Assembly: GCF_030704535.1 (NCBI RefSeq)
Contig: NC_081823.1
Coordinates: 2,016,501-2,080,500 of the forward strand
DNA length: 64,000 nt
DNA from: Vitis vinifera
Lineage: Eukaryota > Streptophyta > Magnoliopsida > Vitales > Vitaceae
Direction of reading: 5' to 3'
Part shown: positions 1,400 through 46,634 of the stretch, in pieces
Position numbering within the stretch: the stretch's first letter is position 1
Layout of the letters: every line of letters begins with the position of its first letter
The notes under the pieces: generated by a model
Database searches by the model: none
Seen by the model: only the letters and a program-made list of their open reading frames with translations
Told to the model about the DNA's origin: nothing
Translations under genes and position numbers: made by a program

Positions 1400-2900
1400 A
1401 GAATTGATTTTGCTTTATAGTTTACAATCTTTTGAATAATGACTACTTTGCCACATTTATAACAAGTTGGAGTTATTGGAGTTTTCTCTTTTAGAGTTAT
1501 TTTATTGGAAGTTTTTTATTTATTAGGATTAATTTTTACAAATTACTTTTGAAAATTTGACTCAATTAATGACTTTTTACCTTTTGTATTATTTTGTTTA
1601 CCTTTTATTTTTTAAGGGACTATTATTGTTTTATACCCATAATATGGACAAAATTTTCCTAATTCCTTTTTACTATCTTGTTTTTCTTTTTTAATTTGAG
1701 ATCTATGCAAATAGCTAAACCTTCATTATTAATCAAAGTAATTAGTTCTTCATATGCTAATGACTCATAAGAAATTATTCCATTATAGATATTTCTTATT
1801 TTTTGTCTAACATTTTCCACAAATAAAGTTGATAAACAAAATATAAATCTTTCTTTCCAATGATGACTTCCACAATCAGGTCTTAACATAACTTTAACTA
1901 AAAACATATTTATATACCACTTAAAATTTTTAAGTTTTGGATATCTAATATTATTGATGATTTTAGAAGTTCTTTCTTGAAATTAGACTAGATCTTCTAT
2001 AAAATGTTTTGTTATTACAAATATTAAAGTATTGACAACATATTCTTCATAAGTTTGGATTGATGTTCCTTCTTATTTTATTATTGTCTTTTTTGCATTT
2101 AATATGTATTCTCTATCATTTTGACTCAACTAATGATCCCACCAACATTTAAGCAAACCAGTGAATCCTATGACTAAGGCACCAGCAACATGAAAATCAT
2201 AATTATTAGTCTTGATTCTATATGCATTAGCAACCATTATCATTTCATGAAGTAAAATAATTATTTAATGTTCACTTATTCCATCAATATTTCATGCATA
2301 AAAACTACTACATCATAACTAGCAGTTAATTGATAATTTTTTTATTCTAATTGAACGTCATGAAAAAAAGGGTTTTAAATAATAATTTTTTTCTACCTAC
2401 AAAATTATTAGAAATTGCATTAATTGTTAAGTGGGAAGGAGGTTGACTATAGAATCCGGAGACAATTTGAATTGTTTTTATATTTTATTGATTTCTGATT
2501 TTTTTTTTTTTTTTTTGTTATAGTTTGAATTTGATTCTTAATTTGAGTAATACCATTAATACTAATTTTATCTAATCTAAGTTGAATTTCTTTTAACATT
2601 GTTTTTGTTGGTGTACCGAGTTGTATGTTTGATTTTGCAGCGTTTATAAGAATAATAAAAAGTTAATTTAAAGACTTAGCAGAATATGATGATGATGATG
2701 ATAAAATTGAAGAAAAAGTTGATTTTAATGTTTCTCCTATATTCCTTCCCAAGGCATAAGAAAACAAAATTTGAGAAATTTTTGTTGTTTGTTGATTTAA
2801 ATGTTGAAGATAATGATTTATATAATTTAATTGTTGTTGAACTTGTCTAATATCTTTGTAAATTATGGGACTTTGTTCATCTTTGGTTCTTGAAATCTTG
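1400..2900 (-). pseudogene. Degenerate coat-protein region of the pararetrovirus polyprotein
   Basis: The minus-strand frame at 1907-1659 has the conserved caulimovirid capsid core, including short motifs such as KVMLRPDCGSHHWKERF and LITLINNEGLAICIDLKLK. About 200 bases downstream, at 1470-1448, the first half of a CCHC zinc knuckle (CYKCGK) is readable. The His/Cys half continues in a different frame, so a small indel has broken the nucleic-acid-binding knuckle. Stops interrupt the region between 2900 and 1910. In living relatives this part packages viral DNA; here it cannot make a full product. The order capsid core then knuckle supports the minus orientation. Confidence 0.72.
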
Positions 2901-3399
2901 AAGAGTGAAATAGAAATTTAATTATAATTAAATTGATGATTATTTAGGGGTGGTTGAAAACCTAATTCTAAGGTTATTATTGAAATTCTTTTTTGAACAA
3001 TTTCTATATGTTTTATTGTTAATTGATGTCCTTCTTTATCTCTTAAAGTTATGAGTTGTTTTCTAAGTTTGAAAAACCAATGGAAAAAAGGAATAATCAT
3101 TTTTTTTGGATTCATGTAATTTTCATATTGTTTTCTTAATGCATTTTTTTAGCTTGAGGAGGAAGTGTTTGAAAATAAGCTCTTTTAGGACTATTGTAAG
3201 GGGAAAAATAATATAATTTTATCCATTATATGTTAGGAGTAAAAAGGGTTTTTTTAATAATCTTTCTTATAAATAATATTAACTTGATTAGGATACATGT
3301 TAGAAGGTGACACAAGAGGAGATTCTTATTGTTGATAGATAGTAATATGAATTTTTAGAGTAAAATCAACACTTTTTAAATTCGTATTTGAAGTAGAAT

Positions 3400-33250: not shown

Positions 33251-33337
33251 ATCACATATGCAGTAAATTGTGGTTCTTCTAATTATGGCTCACCATGGCA
33301 CAGTATGTCTAAAGTGTTCTTGTGAATCCCTCAAGTC

Positions 33338-36300
33338 TCAGACATTTCCATGGCTTCCTCTGTATGTCCCTAACTCTACTAGAGAACTGGTTCTTTTGAG
33401 GTCTCCACCAGAGAATTGTGTTCGTTGTGCATGGTGATGCATCCAGGATCTCATTGCTGCAGATATCAGCCTCCAAATACCTATGTTTTCCAACATAAAA
33501 TCCTGGAAATGCTGCATCTGACCTGCCACATAGATTGCCAGCGAAACTGTTGATGTAGCTCCTGTTGCTAAGAAGAGCACCCAAAGGCTGTCTGGGCTAA
33601 TGCTGTGATCATCTTCAGCTTCCACTTCCAAGCATTTCTGGGAGTGGACCAACTTGTTACGTAAGTACATTATCTCGCCCTTTTCATACAATTTCACCAC
33701 CGCTTCTGAGATGTCTGGAAGTATAGTTGAACCCTTTGGAAACACCTGAATAGAACCACAACAGAACACACAGAAGAACAGACTTCAAGACTTTTTTCTT
33801 TCGTCTCTCCTTTTCCCTTTGGTTCTCAGTAAGAAAAGTAAAAGATGAGAACTAGGTAAAGAAGGATAGAGAATGGGAGATTCAGATAACTGACTCACAA
33901 AGCCTAAGCCTCCAACTCTGAATGTTGGCCCAACAGTAACAAAGCCCTTGCAGTACTGGGCAAGAAACACTTCTGCGTACAAGGATTCCATGAAGGTAGC
34001 TGCTATCTCTCCCCTTCTAAAAGCTTGAGGATATTCTTCGAATGACCTAATATCTTTCATGTTTTTCGGGTCTATTCCCAGGACTTCCTCCAGATATTTT
34101 GGGATAAAGGACCGGAAGCTGCAACCAACCACAAAATTGTTATCCTTGAGGGACTTGACACTGGGTTTGAGCTGCTGGACAGTGAGCAGGGTGCTGAGAT
34201 TGGCTGTGTAGCTTTGTGTTATGACCAGTGCCACAAACAGCCAAACCACCATGGACAACCTTGATAAATTGCTATGCAACTTCTCCCCTGTGGTGACCAA
34301 AGATGTAAACTTCATTCAATATTGAAACTGGTGATGGAAGGGAAAACAGGATGAATCCATTTCAAATCTGTGAAAACCAGAATGGATATCAACTTACCGT
34401 GTAAAGAGAAGAGAGTAGTAAAGGACATGCAAAGCAAAGTTGCTGTTTGGCTCAGTATAGAGCCTTCAAATGCTGAGGTATGATTTCGTTCTATTAGCCA
34501 TACCACACAACCACTGTAAATAGTTATTACACCAGTCAGCACCCACATGGCCTTGGTGAAGGGTTTGATGAACAACCACGGTCTACTTTCTGTTTCAACA
34601 GGAACTATCATCACCAATCCAGGTTCGCTGTAGGGGTGTGTAAAATCTGCGTGTTCCCATCGCTTTGAAATTATTGATATATCACCTACTACTGCATCAA
34701 ATTCCTGAACCAATTTTCCATTTAGATATGTTTAAGACAAGTTATAGTATCAAGAAACAAAGGAAAAAAGATCTCTTACTTTGAGATGAACCTGCTCCAC
34801 CAATGAATCAAAGTTGCCACTGTAAGGAATGAGCTCATATGTTAAATGGTATTTCAGGTGTTCTAGAGTTGCATTGAAAACCTCGATGGAGAATCCGGTA
34901 ACAGAATAATGGCTTCCATCATATGTCACATTAACGAACTGTTTGAATGTTCCATGTTGGGGGACACCGATCCGCAATGGTTTTTGGCTTGTTGGAAGAG
35001 ACCATCCTCTTGGAACAGACCAAGGGCCTCCTGGCCACAGCACTTGTCCAAGGACTTGAAGCTGCCTACTGTATGTAGATTTCTCATTGGTAGTCTTGGA
35101 GAAACCTGATCCCTCGAACCAGAACCCGAGTTCTCTGTAACTCTTTCCAATCACATTAATAATCTGAAAGATGCGCTGTGGAGCCAAGCTTCTCCTGTTG
35201 AATTGGATTCTACTATTTAGGCCATGGAAATCACTGATTGCTATTCTTTCTAAAAATGGTTGGATTAACCCTTTTTTGCTGCTTGGAGCTGTCTCCATTG
35301 CAAGAGCCACAGACCATACAGCATCATATGCCTGCAGAGCGAAAATACCAGGCTCATGGTTGTCTTCCTTGGGATACAAGGAATGAAACTTCTCTCTGAA
35401 TCTGAGATAGAAACCTTGGAACCGTGGTCCACTTTGAGAGAAGTAGCTCCTCACTCCTAGAATGCCTTGCATTGATGAGATGGTTGCAGAATTCATGGAA
35501 TGTATAAGATTTGTAGTTCTGTCTGTAATGATCCAAACATATCCCTCTTCCATCATGCCCAATTCATTAGCTGTTTCAAATAGATGTGCTGCCATTGATA
35601 AAGAGGAATGAAGCACAAAGACTCTTGATTGCCTTCCTTTAAGTCCCTCAAGCTCACCTGATAAAGGAGAAGAGGAATTGACAGTAAATGGTGGAAGAGC
35701 CAGAAGGTAGCCAATTTCTGAACCCACTTGCTTGAGGGCATCGACAAGACATGGAATGATATCAGTGGCTGCAGAGTCAGTGTCCTCATATATTACAGTG
35801 ATCCAACGCCATTGCCAGGACCCAACAATGGCAGCCACTGCGTTCATTTGCAAGTATCTACTTGGTGAGGCTTGAACCAGGAATGGCCACCGATCTGTTG
35901 CCCATTTGGGAGTTGAATCAGCCAGTGAAAGAATAGGAATACGAGCTTGGCCACCAACTTCTGCGACTAAAGACACCTCCTCCCAAGTATGAAGGCCTAC
36001 AATGGCCTGCACTTGCTGCTTCTCAATGAGGTCCATGGCTGCACTTCAGATCATTATGGTTAGAAACACCATTCATTATCTTTCTTTTCAGTTCATATGA
36101 ATCCTACTTCGCTTTTTTTCAGATCATAGCATGCTGTGCCATCATTGATGATAGTTTTCCTAATATACACGACGGAATTGAGCTCAGCTTAGTGTTCTTT
36201 ACTGATTACATATTACCCAGAATTCTTATATGCCATCATTGGAGCCTATCTGAAGGCTGTGATTGTGGAAATTTTACCTGAAAGCCTCGCACGAAGAGGA

Positions 36301-36545
36301 TCGCCTTGAGAGTCTCTCGAATGCAAAACCAATCGTTGATTTGTCTTCTTGTAGAAATCATCAATGGCCAACTCCATTGCTACTTTCTCTTCTTTGCCGA
36401 CACGGGAACCATAATCAACGATGACTCCTATACTGCCATCGCTGTGGCTGGTGCCTCCATGATCAGCTGCTGCTGCTGCTGGTGAGAGCAACAGCACCCA
36501 GGCCATGAAAGACAAGAAAAATCGACTCATTTGAAGGTAGCCCAT
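33338..36545 (-). CDS. Glutamate receptor-like channel, clade II (GLR2-type)
   Basis: Five minus-strand exons, 36545-36278, 36038-34780, 34704-34398, 34287-33899 and 33745-33338, join in phase to 876 aa, near the usual 900. Order: signal peptide (about 1-27, MSRFFLSFMAWVLLLSPAAA), bilobed periplasmic-type amino-terminal domain (about 38-400), ligand-binding half S1 from about 443 (KPLRIGVPQHGTF), M1 (about 563-583), pore loop (about 597-612, LLCMSFTTLFSLHG), M3 with SYTANLSTLLTVQQL (about 636-650), S2, and M4 (about 790-813). This is the full plan of a plant GLR, a plasma-membrane or endomembrane ligand-gated cation channel. All splice sites are GT-AG and no stop or shift is seen. A dead tandem copy lies at 44200-46398. 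Clade II is by resemblance; the ligand cannot be inferred. Confidence 0.9.
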
Positions 36546-37230: not shown

Positions 37231-37542
37231 TTTGGATATATAAATTTTAATGTTTTTAAAAATAATTTTTCTATTTTAGTTTTGTAAAAAAAATTGTAAA
37301 TTTAATTGATGTAATATCGATTAAATTTGGTTTGAGTCATACTAAAAGTAAAAAAAAAAAAAATTATAATTAAAAATAAATATTTTTTTTAGTAAATTGT
37401 GAATACTAATACTATAATAAAGTTATAAATTATAATTTTTTTTTTAAAAAAAAATTATACTATTCCAGTGTAAATCATAGATTATGAATATTAACATCCT
37501 CATAAGAATAATTGAACTTTTTTTTTGGTTAAAATGAATAAT
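37231..37542. other. AT-rich spacer left of the LTR element
   Basis: Poly-A/T-rich DNA with no gene or clear repeat structure. Confidence 0.6.
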
Positions 37543-38880
37543 AATAGTGTAGACCCTCATTTTGGTCCATAAGTTTTTAGGGTATTTTCAGGGCATATTT
37601 TCACCACTTTGAGGAGCTTTTTGGCAGCTGGCATGAGAGGAGTGATCCTAGAAGTAAGAAATCAGGGATTGACACGTTGCATGGGGATATTCTGGCAGTA
37701 GTGAGGCACGTATTTTTTCTGTTAGAGGAGGTAGGTGCTGATTGGTGAAAAGGAACCTTTGGCCAGAGGTAGGGTGCTTTTTCAGAAGCTGCTGCAGGGT
37801 ATCTGTAGGGGGAGGTCTCCATTGCTGTTTGGAGAGAGATATGCTAGGAAGAGAGCAGAGAGAGGTGGATACGGTTGCAGAGGGGGGAGATATTTTTTTG
37901 AGAGGTGAGAGAAGAAGGAAGAGAAAGCTGCAGAGAGAGAAAGAGAGAGGGATCCCAGAGAGCTGAGAGTGAGAAAAAGGGAGATTCCGAGGGGGTTTTT
38001 CATCTGAGGGAGACTGAGTTTTGAGGAGGAGGAGACTAGTTCTGGAGAGGTTTTCATTGCCAGGGAAGAGAGGAGAGTTTTCTGAGAGGGAGAGAGAGCA
38101 GGAGGAGAAGAACAGAGGAAAAATAGCAGAAACGAGGGAAAGATTTTTTTAGGGAACTTCAGAGCTGGGATTTTACAGAGAGGGGAGTAAGCTAGAAGGG
38201 AAGACACCAAAACAGAGGGATATTTGGAGAGGGTGTTGAAGATCTTGAGAAGCTGTGGGATGGAGGAGCAGGGAGAGCTGAAATAGAGGAAAGAAAGGGG
38301 ACATTCTCAGGTACGTTTGCTAGACCTCATTTTGATTGCCATTGATGTTTCTTCTGGTTGTTGTGACTGTGTAGTGTCATATCCGCTCCCTGCTCTTCAT
38401 GTGAGGTTTGATTTAAAATGAGAATTCTTCTTTTAATATCCTTTGTGTGTTTGAGTGAGATCCTTTAATCTCATTCCCATATGGTTTAAATCTCGTTTTC
38501 ATCTGGTTTCTTTTTCCACCTATGCATAAGCCCTATGGCTTCAATATAAGACGGGCTCGGGTCATTGTTTTCTGGGGATTCATTTTATACTCTGTTTTTG
38601 GTCCTTGCTTCATGGTTGTTTACCCTCTATTCTCGGTGGTCACTCGTACGCCCAAGGAGAAGAATCTTGGCTAGTACTGCTAGTGGTTTTTGTATGGGCA
38701 CATTTTGTGAATCCGGGAAGATGTCGTGGCCTTGCTCATAGAATCGCTTGAATATTCTGCTCAGAATGGGTGATTGCCATATTCAGGGAAGCTACTCCAT
38801 AGCCCATCTCTCTCTCTTACTTATGTGAGGTCCAGAGGGAGTGAGTTTGTTTGAAACCATGTTCGGTATCAGCAGCAGCC

Positions 38881-38974
38881 ATAGCTTTGCCAGTTGAGAA
38901 GACCAGTTCTGGCCGGGAGTGCAAGGTCAAGGAAATGTATCAGGTGGGCTTCGGCCGTCTGGATATCCAAGCAA
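38881..38974 (+). pseudogene. S-adenosylhomocysteine hydrolase 5' fragment inside the LTR element
   Basis: About 31 codons read IALPVEKTSSGRECKVKEMY and then QVGFGRLDIQ, aligning with the conserved N-terminus of plant SAHH (adenosylhomocysteinase). The normal ATG is ATA at 38881-38883. Homology then stops and the frame hits a TGA. SAHH removes S-adenosylhomocysteine in the methyl cycle; this piece has no catalytic or NAD-binding part. It is more diverged than the AGO1 piece, so it may be an older capture. Confidence 0.6.
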
Positions 38975-39789
38975 GTGGAAGCTGATATCTCATCGGGTCT
39001 CAGATTATGTGGTTAGCGGCAAGAGGACCTGATTTCGATACCCCTACTGTTGTTGCTGAGGATGGGTATAAATGCAATTCGTGGAGGTTATACAAGCAAT
39101 GGAGCCAAGCAGTCTGTACTTCAAGTTGTGCTTGCGCATCGTCCACCGGGTGATGAGAGGTCCTTAAGTCCGCAATCAGTGAAAAGTCAAAAGGTACATT
39201 TCCCAGAAGGAATTCAGGCTTGAAGGCACCAGCAACCAGGATCAGGAGGATTATCTACTGCTTACCCTTTCTATGGGATCTGGCTATCAGCAAGAAGAAA
39301 AGAAAATATAGTGAGAAACCAGAGGCAAAGCCCGTGTTGTGGGAAGCACCAACAGGTGATATTCAAACAGTTGGTGGAGTTGTCAGTTTGGCTCATTGAA
39401 AATCTCTCATCTCCTGCTACCTCATAAAGCCCTAAGACCTACTCGTGCATGGCATGCATGACAAGCAAGGCCACCTAGCAGCGTCCCCTTTTGACAATTA
39501 CCTCAATCTGCAAGTTGCCAATCAAATTAGTTGGCTACCATTCCTTATCCGCGTGCCACGCATGCGTTCTCTAGCTTGCCACCACAAGTCCTCATCCCAT
39601 AAATCATCTCTATCGTTCCATAGCTCATAGCCTTACACATTCCCCTACCCATCATTGTCTCTCTCTCTCTCTAAATCTCCACGTTCCTTTCACTGTTCCT
39701 GACTCATGACTCACCCTCTCATCCATTCTTTTGTCATTTTACCCGCGTTACGTGGCCTATGCATTCATGGGTTTCCACAGTCCCATCAA
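38975..39789 (+). other. Internal sequence of the LTR element, origin unknown
   Basis: It has the GC content of genic DNA. Short reading frames occur (for example VLQVVLAHRPPGDERSLSPQ near 39120-39180) but I do not recognise them. The stretch 39440-39720, with a CT microsatellite at about 39658-39673, resembles a plant promoter or 5' leader. It could be more captured host DNA. Confidence 0.35.
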
Positions 39790-40225
39790 AGCCTCAAATC
39801 TGGCCATCAGAAAGATAGGAGATTCAGGTGTGACAACAATTGTAGGTGGGAAATCAAATGTTGCAGGGTATGGAAATGGACCCTGTGAGGATGCAAAGTT
39901 CTCAAGAGATTTTGATGTAGTGTATGTTCGGCCTACCCGTTCTTTATTAGTTGTTGACAGAGGAAACGCTGCACTTTGGTAAATCTCTCTCAACCAGGAG
40001 GATTGCGATTACCAGAACAGTTCTATTTCTGCCACAGATATTTTTATGGTTATTGGCGCTGTCATGGTAGGATATGCTTCATGTTTGCTTCAGAAAGGAT
40101 TTGGGCCTTCTGTTTTCTCAAAGACGCAACACTCAGAGAGCGAATCCGAAGACCAACTGATCAAGGAGTACTATCTGTGGGGATGTTTCTCTCAGAACAG
40201 AGAGGTGGTTTCAGTGAAGGTTGTC
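39790..40225 (+). pseudogene. NHL-repeat protein fragment inside the LTR element
   Basis: The frame reads LAIRKIGDSGVTTIVGGKSN, then GYGNGPCEDAKFSRDFDVVY and SLLVVDRGNAAL, typical of a plant NHL-repeat (beta-propeller) protein. After an in-frame TAA at 39979-39981 the same frame continues (ISLNQEDCDYQ) into a membrane-like stretch (IFMVIGAVMVGYASCLLQ), then SESESEDQLIKEYY. The TGG-TAA pair where CGG-CAA would be expected points to C-to-T decay. No intron is seen, so it may derive from RNA. Upstream repeats of the parent are absent. It runs directly into the AGO1 piece, in a different frame. Confidence 0.6.
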
Positions 40226-40234
40226 CAAAATAAG

Positions 40235-42527
40235 CAAACTGGCTGCACGTGCTGATCTACACCATTTAGGACTGTTCTTACAGGGGAGGCAAGCTGATGC
40301 TCCCCAAGAAGCTCTTCAGGTTCTTGACATTGTTTTGCGCGAGTTGCCTACAACTCGGTACTGTCCCGTGGGGGGATCATTTTATTCTCCAGATCTAGGG
40401 AGAAGGCAGCCATTGGGTGAGGGTTTGGAAAGTTGGCGTGGTTTCTATCAGAGTATTCGGCCAACTCAGATGGGACTGTCACTGAATATTGATATGTCCT
40501 CGACGGCTTTTATTGAGCCATTGCCTGTCATTGATTTTGTGACACAGCTTCTGAATCGGGATGTTTCTTCCCGACCATTATCTGATGCTGATCGTGTAAA
40601 GGTTAAGAAGGCTCTCAGAGGAGTCAAAGTTGAAGTTACTCATCGGGGAAATATGCGTAGAAAATATCGTATATCTGGCTTAACATCACAAGCAACACGT
40701 GAATTGACTTTTCCTGTTGATGATAGAGGAACCGTGAAATCTGTCTTTGAGTACTTCTATGAAACATATGGGTTTGTCATTCAGCATTCTCAATGGCCTT
40801 GTCTGCAAGTGGGAAATCAACAGAGGCCAAATTATTTGCCTATGGAGGTTTGCAAGATTGTTGAAGGCCAAAGATATTCCAAGAGGTTGAATGAGAGGCA
40901 GATTACTGCTTTACTGAAGGTGACTTGTCAACGTCCTCAAGAAAGGGAGCATGACATAATGCAGACGATTCACCATAATGCTTATCATGAGGATCCTTAT
41001 GCTAAGGAGTTTGGTATCAAAATCAGTGAGAAGCTCGCTTCAGTTGAAGCTCGCATTTTACCTGCTCCATGGCTTAAATACCATGATACGGGAAGGGAAA
41101 AGGATTGTCTGCCTCAAGTTGGCCAGTGGAATATGATGAATAAGAAAATGGTCAATGGTGGAACTGTCAACAATTGGATTGGCATAAATTTTTCACGTGG
41201 AGTACAAGAGAGTGTGGCTCGTGGGTTCTGTCAGGAGTTTGCACAAATGTGTTATATTTCTGGCATGGCATTTAATCCGGAACCAGTACTTCCACCAATT
41301 ACTGCACGTCCTGATCAGGTGGAGAGAGTTTTGAAGGCAAGGTTTCATGAAGCCATGACCAAACTCCAGCCACAGGGCAAGGAGCTTGATTTGCTTATTG
41401 TTATTTTGCCAGATAATAATGGTTCACTCTATGGTGATTTGAAACGAATCTGTGAGACAGATCTTGGGCTTGTTTCACAGTGTTGCTTACATAAACATGT
41501 GTATAGAATGAGTAAGCAATATCTGGCAAATGTGGCATTGAGGATTAATGTAAAGGTTGGAGGGAGAAATACGGTGCTTGTTGATGCAATATCAAGGCGC
41601 ATACCTCTGGTCAGTGATCGGCCCACTATCATTTTTGGGGCTGATGTTACCCATCCTCACCCAGGAGAGGATTCAAGCCCATCTATTGTTGCTGTTGTCG
41701 CCTCTCAAGATTGGCCCGAGATTACAAAATATGCTGGTTTGGTTTGTGCTCAGGCCCACCGACAGGGGCTCATCCAAGATCTTTATAAGACTTGGCAGGA
41801 TCCTGTAAGAGGAACTGTGTCTGGTGGAATGATCAAAGAACTGCTTATATCTTTCCGTAGAGCAACTGGGCAGAAACCTCAGCGCATAATATTCTATAGG
41901 GATGGGGTCAGTGAAGGGCAGTTCTATCAAGTCTTACTATATGAACTTGATGCTATTCGTAAGGCATGTGCATCTTTGGAGCCAAACTATCAGCCTCCTG
42001 TGACATTTGTTGTGGTTCAGAAACGCCATCATACTAGATTGTTTGCCAACAACCATAATGACCGGAATGCAGTTGACAAGAGTGGGAATATATTACCTGG
42101 TACTGTTGTAGATTCTAAGATCTGCCATCCTACTGAGTTTGACTTTTACCTGTGCAGCCATGCTGGCATTCAGGGCACAAGCTGACCTGCCCATTACCAC
42201 GTGTTGTGGGATGAAAACAAGTTCACAGCTGATGGGCTGCAGTCCCTCACAAACAACCTCTGCTACACATATGCTAGGTGCACACGCTCTGTTTCCATCG
42301 TGCCCCCTGCATACTATGCTCATCTGGCTGCTTTCCGAGCACGCTTCTATATGGAGCCAGAGACATCAGATAGTGGGTCAATGACAAGCGGTGCTGCTGC
42401 TGGTCGTGGGGGCATGGGTGTTGGAGGACCAGGTCCTCGAAACACACGGGTATCAGGTGCTAATGCAGCCGTTAGACCCCTCCTGGCCCTCAAGGAGAAT
42501 GTCAAGAGGGTCATGTTTTACTGTTAG
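40235..42527 (+). pseudogene. AGO1: Processed ARGONAUTE1 copy, 5'-truncated, with a nonsense codon
   Basis: An uninterrupted frame from [16 protein letters not shown] to HAGIQGTS (ends 42185) matches AGO1 across the late N domain, ArgoL1, PAZ, MID and most of PIWI, with no introns where the parent gene has many. It is therefore a copy of spliced mRNA. The N-terminal third is missing. Catalytic-type residues are visible in [11 protein letters not shown] (Asp codon 41643-41645), [10 protein letters not shown] and [11 protein letters not shown] (Asp 41901-41903). A TGA at 42183-42185 replaces the Arg codon expected before PAHYHVLW, so the product would lose the last catalytic His and the C-terminus. 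The same frame then continues open to VKRVMFYC and a TAG at 42525-42527, followed by 3'-UTR-like sequence to about 42700. The otherwise clean frame suggests recent capture or conservation. Confidence 0.9.
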
Positions 42528-42699
42528 TTTCTTCTACATTCAGGAACCAGAATTTCCAGTTCGGCAATAAGGCTCCTCATTCACATGACCACCCCGGGGT
42601 ACCTCTGATCAGTCCTCGCCCATCATCAGTTTCAGTATACTGATGATCTCGCAGTGTTCATCACTCCGGCTCCGCTGGGATTTTAGAGAAGGCATGCAA

Positions 42700-43640
42700 C
42701 TGGTGTTCAAGGTGCACCAAGTTCAGAATCCCACTCTGCATGGCCTACATGGACGTCTTTGGGCCTTATGTTCTTCTGTCATTACTTCATCTTTGTTTTC
42801 AAAATAACTTCCTAAGCTCCATCTTGCCTATGATCCTCCAAATTTAATTCTCCCAAATAATTTCCATTCCTCCTTTTTCATCCTTAGCATTTTTTCTTAG
42901 GCTTCAAAAACCCGATTTTCAATAAAACTTGGCCACCATTTCCTTTCCGGTGAGCCACATTTGAATTTTCTGTGATTTTTTTAAAATGTTTTAAAATAAG
43001 TGTGAATTTATTTTCGCAATTCTAAGTGATAGAATTTGTGAAATTAATTCACTCAAAATAAAAACGGGCTTTGGTGGGGGCCCAACATATGTGATTGATT
43101 GATTAATTGATTGATTTGATTGCCATGCATGAATGATTTATTCTGCTCTATGATATGCATGAGACTATTCATTAATTGTGCACTAATCTCACTTCTTGAT
43201 AGCGCATTGAAGAATCGTTGCCCAGGTACACATCTGTTCTTATTCTGATCTTGCTATATGCATGTTTTGATACTCATATGTGCATGATTGATTTGAGTAT
43301 TTATTGATTTCCTCATCATTGCCACACCAGCTTCATTCTATTAGTAGAGGCCCGACATTAGGGACTTAGAGGGGTGCTACGGTCTTTACCGTACCTTCCC
43401 GATAAGTAACCTGACCCCCGAACCTGATCCGGTTTTTCACAGACCGCCTTTTCTAAAATAAGGAGTCACACTTAGGGTTTTTCTTTCTTATTTTGTTTAC
43501 CCTTTAAAAATAAAAACAAAAATAAGTGGCGACTCCAAGTCATTTTTCAAACAATAAATAAAAATCATTTTCAAATCAAAATCGAGTTTCGCCATTCGAG
43601 TGGGAAACGCATTCGAGCGATCGAAAATGCGGGGTCCACA
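42700..43640 (+). other. 3' non-coding arm of the LTR element
   Basis: It contains GATTGATTGATTAATTGATT repeats, GAGGGGTGCTACGGTC, AAGTGGCGACTCCAAGTC and the terminal GGGGTCCACA, wording typical of plant gypsy LTR 3' ends. No coding sequence. Confidence 0.55.
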
Positions 43641-43645
43641 AATAG

Positions 43646-44165: not shown

Positions 44166-44199
44166 CAGTAAGTTCCATATGCAGTACATTGTGGCTTTT

Positions 44200-46398
44200 C
44201 TAAGAGAGAAGGAAGAACTTCCAGAGTCCATAGCTCGCCATGGCACGGTATGTCTGAAGTGTTCTTGTGAATCCCTTTTGTCTTAGGCATTTCCGTGGCT
44301 TCCTCTGTACGTTCCTAACTCTACTAGAGAACTGGTTCTTTTGATGTCTCCAGCAGAGGATCGTGTTCTTTGTGCATGGTGATGTATCCAGGATCTCATT
44401 GCTGCAGATGTCAGCCTCCAAATGCCTGTGTTCCAACATAAAATCCTGGAAATGCTGCTTCTGGCATGGCGTGCCACATAGATTGCCAGTGAAACTGTTG
44501 ATGTAGCTCCTGTTGCTAAGAAGAGCGCCCAAAGGCTGTCTGGGCTAATGCTGTGATCATCGTCTGCTTCCACTTCCAAGCATTTCTGGGAGTGGACCAA
44601 CTTGTTACGTAAGTACATTATCTCACCCTTTTCATACAATTTCACCACCGCTTCTGAGATGTCTGGAAGTATAGTTTAACACTGAGTTATGGTGTCAAGG
44701 AACAAAGGAAAAAAGATCTCTTACCTTGAGATGAACCTGCTCCACCAGTGAATCATAGCTGCCATTGTAAGGAATGAGCTTGTATGTTAAAGGATATCCC
44801 GGGTGTTCTAGAGTTGCATTGAAAACCTCGATGGACAATCCGGTAACAGAATAATGGCTTCCATCATATGTCACGTTAACGAACTGTTGGAATGTTCCAC
44901 GTTGGGGGACACCGATCCGCAATGGTTTTTGGCTTGTTGGAAGAGACCATCCTCTTGGAACAGACCAAGGGTATCCTGGCCAGAGCACTTGTCCAAGGAA
45001 TCGGAGCTGCCTACCGTATTTTGCTGTCTCATTGGTAGTCTTGGAGAAACCAAATCCCTTGAACCAGAACCCGAGTTCTCTGTAACTCTTTCCAATCACA
45101 TTAGTAATCTAAAAGGTTTGCAGTGGAGCCAAGCTTCGCCTGTTGAATTGGATTCTACTGGTTAGTGCATGGAAATCAGTGAGTGCTATTCTTTCTAACA
45201 ATGGTTGGATTGACCCTTTTTTGCTGCTTGAAGCTGCCTCCATTGCAAGAGCCACACACCATACAGCATCATATGCCTGCAGAGCGAAAATCCCAGGCTC
45301 TTGGTTGTCTTCCTTGGGATACAAGGAATGAAACTTTTCTCTGAATCTGAGGTCGAACTCCTGGAACCATGGTCCACTTTGAGAGAAGTAGCTCTTCAAT
45401 CCTAGAATGCCTTGCATTGATGAGAGATGATTGCAGAATTCACAGAATGTACAAGACTCGTGGTGCTGTATGTAATGATCCAAACACAGCCCTCTTCCAT
45501 CATGCCCAATTCGTTAGCTGTTTGAAATAGACTCACTGCCATTGATAAAGAGGAATGAAGCACAAATACTCTTGATTGCCTTCCTTTAAGCCGCTCAAGC
45601 TCATCTGATAAAGGAGTAGAGGAATTGACAGTAAATGGTGGAAGAGCCAGAAGGTAGCCAATTTCTGAACCCACTTGCTTGAGGGCATCAGCAAGACATG
45701 GAATGATATCAGTGGCAGCAGAGTCAATGTCCTCGTATATCACAGTGATCCAACGCCATCTCCAGGATCCAACAATGGCAGCCACTGCATTCATTTGCCA
45801 GTATCTAATTGGTGAGGCTTGAACCAGGAATGGCGCACCTCCTCCCAAGTCTGAAGGCCTACAATGGCCTGCACTTGCTGCTTCTCTATGAGGTCCATGG
45901 TTAGCTGCAGTCCAGATCATTATGGTTAGAAACACCATTCCTTACCTTTCTTTTCAGTTCATATCAATCCTACTTTGCTTTTTTCGGATCATAGTATGCT
46001 ATGACTGTATGCTATCATTGATGATAGTTCTGCCAATTTACACGATGGCATTGAGCTCAGCTTAGTGTTTTTTTACTGATTTCATATTACCCAGAATTCT
46101 TATATATCAATAGAGCCTATCTGAAGGCTGTGGTTGTGGAAATTTTACCTGAAAGCCTCCTGCGAAGAGGATCGCCTTGAGAGTCTCTCAAACGCAAAAC
46201 CAATCGTTGATTAGTCTTGTTGTAGAAATCATCAATGGCCAACTCCATTGCTACTTTCTCTTCTTTGCCCACACGGGAACCATAATCAACAATGACTCCT
46301 ATACTGTCATTGCTGTAGCTGATGCCTCCATGATCAGCTGCAGCTTGCACCCAGGTCATGAAAGAGAAGAAAAATCGACTCATTTGAAGATAGCCCAT
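44200..46398 (-). pseudogene. Dead tandem copy of the GLR gene
   Basis: Closely similar to the intact gene at 33338-36545. Exon 1 (46398-46149) keeps its ATG and donor but has a shortened signal peptide. Exon 2 has lost about 78 bp near 45835, has a +2 frameshift near 45425 (GAGAGATG versus GAGATG) and a CAG-to-TAG stop at 45111-45109. Exons 3 and 4, their introns and the start of exon 5 are deleted by a junction near 44680, so M1, the pore, M3 and much of S2 are gone. The last exon, with M4, survives in part. No channel could be made. The shared 5' flank, including a MITE-like element, shows it arose by segmental tandem duplication. Confidence 0.92.
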
Positions 46399-46634
46399 CT
46401 CCTATATTTTCTTATGAAAGTTCACCTCTGGCCACCATTTAAGCTTTAAAATTCAACAGTCAATGAAAGTCAAAGCCCCATGACTTCGCAGGTTTTACAG
46501 GAATCTTTGAAGAGTCGAGGATGAACTTGCATGGTGAGGGAGAAAAACGCGTTGCCTCACTTCAAAGTCCCACATTTTTTATTTTTAAGCATTATAGTCG
46601 AGTCATAAGCATAGAAGTTGTTAAGATTTTATCC

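Follow-up and report, generated by a model that had tools for sequence, protein, structure and literature searches.

The insertion at 37548–43640 of the window, by which we mean the whole 64,000-nucleotide stretch analysed here (C19:2016501-2080500; genome searched: 495.6 Mb in 21 contigs), is one solo LTR of 6093 bp, and the host gene pieces that it carries lie inside this LTR. From their sequences, the pieces come from at least four host genes, in spliced form, and they include the greater part of AGO1, a gene that acts in gene silencing. We consider it highly probable that the U3 of the LTR is a patchwork in which LTR sequence is interspersed with host mRNAs that were reverse-transcribed into it through template switching of the reverse transcriptase (RT), and that LTR-LTR recombination later left the solo copy.

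The insertion starts with TG at 37548, ends with CA at 43640, has an imperfect 9-bp terminal inverted repeat (TGTAGACCC / TGTGGACCC) and is flanked by a perfect 5-bp duplication, AATAG. A preliminary description of this DNA had delimited a single LTR-type insertion by these same features and had placed an SAHH start, an NHL and an intronless AGO1 piece inside it; the limits were borne out and all three pieces were found. It had also proposed that the host genes stand in place of gag-pol and that the two ends be aligned to measure LTR identity. Self-BLAST detected no direct repeat or LTR-type similarity between the ends; they do not represent two copies of one LTR, and an element with two degenerate LTR ends was rejected. 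Neither a GGGGCATATT-type polypurine tract (PPT) nor a AAATGGCGACTCC-type primer-binding site (PBS) is present beside the window copy. There is no gag-pol-sized ORF in 37548–43640, where no ORF apart from AGO1 exceeds 142 aa (the retroviral-domain scan of the insertion covered part of the short ORFs). What remains is one LTR with a perfect short duplication and without interior, PBS or PPT; nothing has replaced gag-pol, and the captures lie within a single LTR, as host pieces do in several of its relatives. Pack-MULEs carry long terminal inverted repeats and a duplication of about 9 bp; the short imperfect repeat and the 5-bp duplication seen here are not of this type.

The solo LTR lies about 1 kb upstream of the ATG of the first of two tandem glutamate-receptor-like gene copies (named by eye), head to head with it. 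These copies occupy 33255–36545 and 44176–46413 on the minus strand, with pieces 87–92% alike. When the tandem paralogue was used to look for the empty site, similarity stopped at 37265, 282 bp before the site, and the remainder was AT-rich noise.

Table 1. Features of the insertion (window coordinates) and host-gene cargo of related LTRs
Feature	Position	Strand or orientation	Evidence or remark
Target-site duplication AATAG, left copy	37543..37547	.	Read from sequence
Solo LTR, 6093 bp, long-LTR Gypsy family	37548..43640	+	No PPT before, no PBS after; termini common to other LTRs
LTR 5′-terminal module, 216 bp	37548..37763	+	99.5% identical to C17:10000447 copy, then abrupt divergence
Module with SAHH piece	38266..39332	+	95–96% identity with the C4:195 kb and C5:1.79 Mb copies
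SAHH (adenosylhomocysteinase) N-terminal piece, residues 5–34	38884..38973	+	PDB sequence search: 3OND, E 5.9e-6
Probable spliced host-gene piece	39005..39191	+	C11 and C14 loci match in two blocks, 110 bp between in each
Module common to multi-capture LTR-like copy C1:21.85 Mb	39649..39738	+	93%
NHL-repeat protein cDNA piece	39792..40168	+	BLAST blocks and LTR relatives
RRM-protein mRNA piece (start approximate, from RRM domain match in C13 sister)	40175..40243	+	Longer in C13 sister LTR
5′ capture junction, RRM piece / AGO1 exon, microhomology CAAACTGGC	40235..40243	+	Both partners compared
AGO1 cDNA piece, internal exon into 3′ UTR	40235..42566	+	19 exon blocks joined; one stop at 42183
3′ capture junction, AGO1 3′ UTR / LTR body, microhomology AGTTTGGCA (window AGTTCGGCA)	42558..42566	+	Both partners compared
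LTR 3′ body; core shared by the family starts at about 42874	42567..43640	+	Comparison with family copies
Target-site duplication AATAG, right copy	43641..43645	.	Read from sequence
L012 cargo: HSP70, HSP90, Sec61beta		sense	Single-ORF Pfam
L014 (compound) cargo: KH, FAD-binding		sense	Single-ORF Pfam
L020 cargo: SAM synthetase, Clp protease		sense	Single-ORF Pfam
L021 cargo: helicase C		sense	Single-ORF Pfam
L023 cargo: PPR		sense	Single-ORF Pfam
L025 cargo: tubulin		sense	Single-ORF Pfam
L027 cargo: class-V aminotransferase		sense	Single-ORF Pfam
L028 cargo: MIZ zinc finger		sense	Single-ORF Pfam
L015 cargo: BAHD-type transferase	L015:2255-2638 (+ strand of locus)	antisense	Single-ORF Pfam; the only clear departure from sense orientation

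Searching the genome with the termini, as the preliminary description had suggested, recovered many relatives. The NHL or the SAHH piece also occurs, without AGO1, in related copies. The last 311 bp of the LTR match at least 40 other genomic places at 91–95% identity (40 scored of 2787 first-look candidates), and the first 873 bp have at least 39 other matches, of which 15 extend to the terminal base (40 scored of 87 candidates); a relative on C9 has both LTR ends, equally oriented and separated by 4761 bp. Twenty regions were taken where the 3′ end of the window LTR matched best, a non-random sample; both LTR ends could be delimited in 17, giving 18 copies including the window copy, while L009, L010 and L022, in which no LTR start was found, were left out. 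LTR length over these 18 copies is 2854–6093 bp (L014 being compound). Half of them (9/18: the window copy, L011, L012, L013, L015, L016, L017, L020 and L021) are solo LTRs, each flanked by a perfect 5-bp duplication, and three LTR pairs (L023/L024, L025/L026 and L018/L019) show 99.7–99.98% identity over 3.3–5.4 kb; L027 follows a PPT and L028 precedes a PBS. Paired elements carry GGGGCATATT (PPT) before the 3′ LTR and AAATGGCGACTCC (PBS) after the 5′ LTR. Retrotrans_gag (PF03732, E 1.1e-6) was found in the interior at L018, in one of five internal ORFs tested; Pfam gave no match in two L019 ORFs or in the L023 interior, and a weak viral match below the cut-off in L027. Relatives with an LTR pair, PBS, PPT and gag point to Ty3/gypsy, and the LTRs fall within the Ogre/Tat length range of about 2–6.5 kb. 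The family is a Gypsy family with long LTRs and a high copy number, and resembles Ogre in LTR size.

The 3′ end common to the LTR copies spans about 460–855 bp, and the middles mostly differ (L014 aside), the private share being 48–84% of each LTR within a set of 14 distinct LTRs. L014 (C10:6063000-6072300) combines a single LTR start with two 3′ LTR ends (4000 and 7845), as in a nested or compound element. L026 (C3:156000-165500) lies between a PPT on its 5′ side and a PBS on its 3′ side and is followed, some 1.3 kb on, by another LTR end, as in a tandem or recombinant array. The translations of L019, L024 and L027 ahead of the 3′ LTR are repetitive, and by eye suggest dense tandem repeats.

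Within the window LTR, the copies of the SAHH-bearing module on C4 and C5 contain 73 bp extra at 39005–39007, and a C6 copy (23.56 Mb) matches the same module at 90% up to 39007 only. These C4, C5 and C6 copies are putative LTRs; the sequence preceding the C4 and C6 matches contains an LTR start. Pfam gave no match for the SAHH piece, nor for the window's own NHL ORFs. The NHL identity was established through a sister LTR in which the copy is longer (PF01436, E 1e-7) and through an intron-bearing genomic relative, C19:1078632-1081768, which matches in 4 blocks; intronless NHL copies lie in LTRs at C13:10.40 and 10.43 Mb. The stretch 39792–40243 is common to two C13 LTRs, and the C13 sister runs from its NHL and RRM pieces into LTR body without AGO1. 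For the pieces other than AGO1, intron loss was read from BLAST block structure.

The AGO1 piece is contiguous over 2332 bp, contains PAZ/Piwi domains (Pfam) and is 99.06% identical to the gene at C17:18732462-18738920. Its alignment to this gene falls into 19 blocks, so that 18 introns of about 76–808 bp are absent. The 22 differences comprise 12 nonsynonymous (including the stop), 9 synonymous and one in the UTR, a pattern that looks as expected of an unconstrained copy; the piece has no start and is not a functional gene. Assuming the rice rate of 1.3e-8 substitutions per site and year, its age would be roughly 0.7 million years. No second near-identical AGO1 sequence was found besides the C17 gene (35 of 35 candidates scored). 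Another AGO1 piece (81%), contiguous over three exon joints and with different borders, lies in the LTR-like copy at C1:21.85 Mb, where it adjoins gelsolin-repeat and DWF1-like pieces (DWF1 named by eye) and LTR 3′ body follows downstream at 73.5%, its end not reached. Short AGO1 pieces at C11:10259049, C12:17525285, C1:12978636 and C13:25073927 (query 579–727, 81–90%) cross an exon joint without the intron and may be older captures.

Two junctions, those with both partner sequences in hand, were resolved to the base. Upstream, the C13 sister reads AAGCAAACTGGC/CAATG, the AGO1 exon ATCAAACTGGC/TGCACG and the window AAGCAAACTGGC/TGCACG; downstream, AGO1 reads CCAGTTTGGCA/TTTAAGG, the LTR body of relatives GAAGTTTGGCA/ATAAGG and the window CCAGTTCGGCA/ATAAGG. 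Both AGO1 borders are 9-nt microhomologies, the 3′ one with one base different in the window, and an overlap of at least 9 is expected by chance at 1.3e-5 to 2.3e-5 per junction (random AGO1/LTR pairings).

These borders bear on the possibility that LINE-type machinery put processed pseudogenes (AGO1, NHL, SAHH) into an already integrated LTR. The AGO1 piece is indeed intronless, none of the 35 candidates is a second near-identical intronless copy, and the 6-mer AATAAG stands on both sides of AGO1 like a small target-site duplication; each copy of the 6-mer also occurs in a relative without AGO1. Such an origin is, however, poorly compatible with a piece that starts in an internal exon, stops within the 3′ UTR without poly(A) and has 9-nt microhomology at both borders, and with NHL and SAHH pieces that recur in other copies. 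The L023/L024 pair, whose two LTRs lie 18.9 kb apart and are 99.98% identical over 5430 bp, has the same cargo in both, and L017, a solo LTR on C2 with its own duplication CATAT, is 99.4% identical to this C19 pair over its full length. An LTR with passengers that exists both as a near-identical pair and, at another site, as a solo LTR implies that the passengers move with the element. Insertion by LINE-type machinery seems to us improbable.

The cargo of 13 LTRs other than the window copy was surveyed in ORFs of at least 66 aa outside the LTR ends, after low-complexity filtering. At E ≤ 0.01, Pfam returned 17 families in 104 sense ORFs versus 3 in 86 antisense ORFs. With two PPR models from the same ORF merged, the counts are 16 versus 3 (Fisher P = 0.007); they become 16 versus 2 when the weakest antisense match is removed (P = 0.002), and 13 versus 3 when three weak sense matches but no antisense one are removed (P = 0.03). 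The sense excess is significant under every counting tried (P 0.002 to 0.03). Single-ORF scans, which covered part of the ORFs, confirmed host domains in 9 of the 13 LTRs, eight in sense and one in antisense only (Table 1); L011, L013, L016 and L018 (4/13) had no confirmed host domain in the singly scanned ORFs. These scans gave no Pfam match in ORFs of L013, L016 and L018 and in several of L011, L012, L015, L021, L023 and L028. EGF_TEN in L021 and TTC7_N in L011 (E 0.0028) fell below curated cut-offs, and malate synthase, DUF3537 and aldehyde dehydrogenase are among the sense families at the level of the set, assigned to no single LTR. The middle of L012 consists of abutting blocks that match different loci (1–326, 325–808, 803–1209, 1224–1637, 1625–2465, 2465–2774 and 2747–3179; 40 scored of 230 candidates); one match, on C4, contains introns and falls into three blocks. 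Different host genes within the same repeat in several of the tested relatives point to repeated copying of host mRNAs into the ends of the element.

Could genomic segments instead have been moved into the LTR as DNA, by ectopic repair or gene conversion? Sharp-edged modules common to several loci could also arise by LTR-LTR DNA recombination, and the antisense BAHD-type transferase piece in L015, which does not fit template switching, would be accommodated. Capture at the DNA level is nevertheless very improbable, given the 18 introns lost from AGO1, those lost from NHL and the lean towards sense orientation; the sample so far shows intron absence together with sense bias.

Template switching in U3 fits the sense bias, the intron loss, the microhomology, the partial cargo in relatives and the identical cargo in an LTR pair. 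By this mechanism, host mRNAs would be co-packaged with element RNA, and after the first strand transfer the RT would copy U3 from the RNA 3′ end during minus-strand synthesis. At short matches it may leave the U3 template for a spliced host mRNA and then return, so that the insert would enter the single U3 from which both LTRs derive and be doubled. Captures would be present in both LTRs because U3 is copied into both, and LTR-LTR recombination would later delete the interior, leaving the window solo LTR. Both the packaging of host mRNAs and the position of the cargo in U3 proper are what we infer.

The gene pieces of maize Bs1 sit between its LTRs. The window insertion has intronless host exons in an LTR element (AGO1, NHL), but not cargo between two LTRs. 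Like it, Bs1 is an LTR element that holds pieces of three host genes in spliced form, as given in the available text of PMC13317346; its pieces form a coding region of the element, whereas those of the window insertion lie in an LTR whose relatives carry others. A Bs1-like non-autonomous element, with two degenerate LTR ends enclosing genes in place of gag-pol, would account for the TG/CA ends, target-site duplication, host genes and lack of a gag-pol-sized ORF, but is scarcely credible when the ends lack direct-repeat similarity, similar termini bound LTRs of 3.9–5.9 kb elsewhere, including 8 other solo copies with target-site duplications, and LTR pairs enclose PBS, PPT and once a gag ORF.

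The preliminary description's reading of several captured spliced host transcripts in one LTR-type insertion, AGO1 among them, is supported. Its view of such transduction as rare, with Bs1 as the precedent, was too narrow: a maize survey reports 425 intact elements with gene fragments and at least 189 captures (PMC2774510), and 672 and 1343 genes are given for captures in rice and sorghum (PMC3726574, available text). Its multi-gene aspect does stand as unusual, because the maize survey, in its available text, found no element with more than one gene. The soybean TRIM GmaRetroS15 likewise has exon-only fragments of three host genes and 5-bp duplications, but its elements measure 1172–1449 bp in the set described and hold the pieces in the internal region, against a 6.1-kb LTR here (PMC4717578, available text). 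Ogre/Tat Ty3-gypsy elements share very long LTRs (Ogre 1.9–6.5 kb, here 2.9–6.1 kb); host cDNA in LTRs is not described in the available text of PMC6431247, and the likeness is one of LTR size. Abnormal template switching is reported to alter an LTR in BARE-1/Wis-2 (PMC13317346) and to fuse two elements in BARE-2 and Triticeae complexes (PMC1950507), going by the available text of each. There the switch partner is another retrotransposon, whereas in the window insertion it would be host mRNAs. During retroviral oncogene transduction, host mRNA joins element RNA at short matches in the course of reverse transcription, and the oncogenes sit between the LTRs; the joining at short matches is alike, and the window pieces differ in lying in the LTR, hence doubled. 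Among the listed titles and abstract openings of the open-licence PMC literature, none indicated an element family that carries captured host cDNA within its LTRs.

That LTR elements capture genes is already known; here the capture site is the LTR itself, captures are multiple, and their sets differ between several family members. Both LTRs receive the copied U3, so a single template switch would double a host piece and give it the mobility of the element. A more speculative and, in our judgement, unlikely proposal is that the family constantly renews its U3 with spliced host mRNAs, retained because they help against homology-based silencing: a U3 of essential host sequence (AGO1, chaperones, tubulin) would be a poor silencing target, since small RNAs would also hit host genes. 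If this were true, the LTR would amount to a library of host transcripts, shuffled and camouflaged. The AGO1 cargo raises the question of whether the AGO1 gene is reached by small RNAs from the window LTR. With its many captures, such a family would be a natural record of the mRNAs that enter retrotransposon particles and of the sites where the RT switches, which are hard to study in plants.
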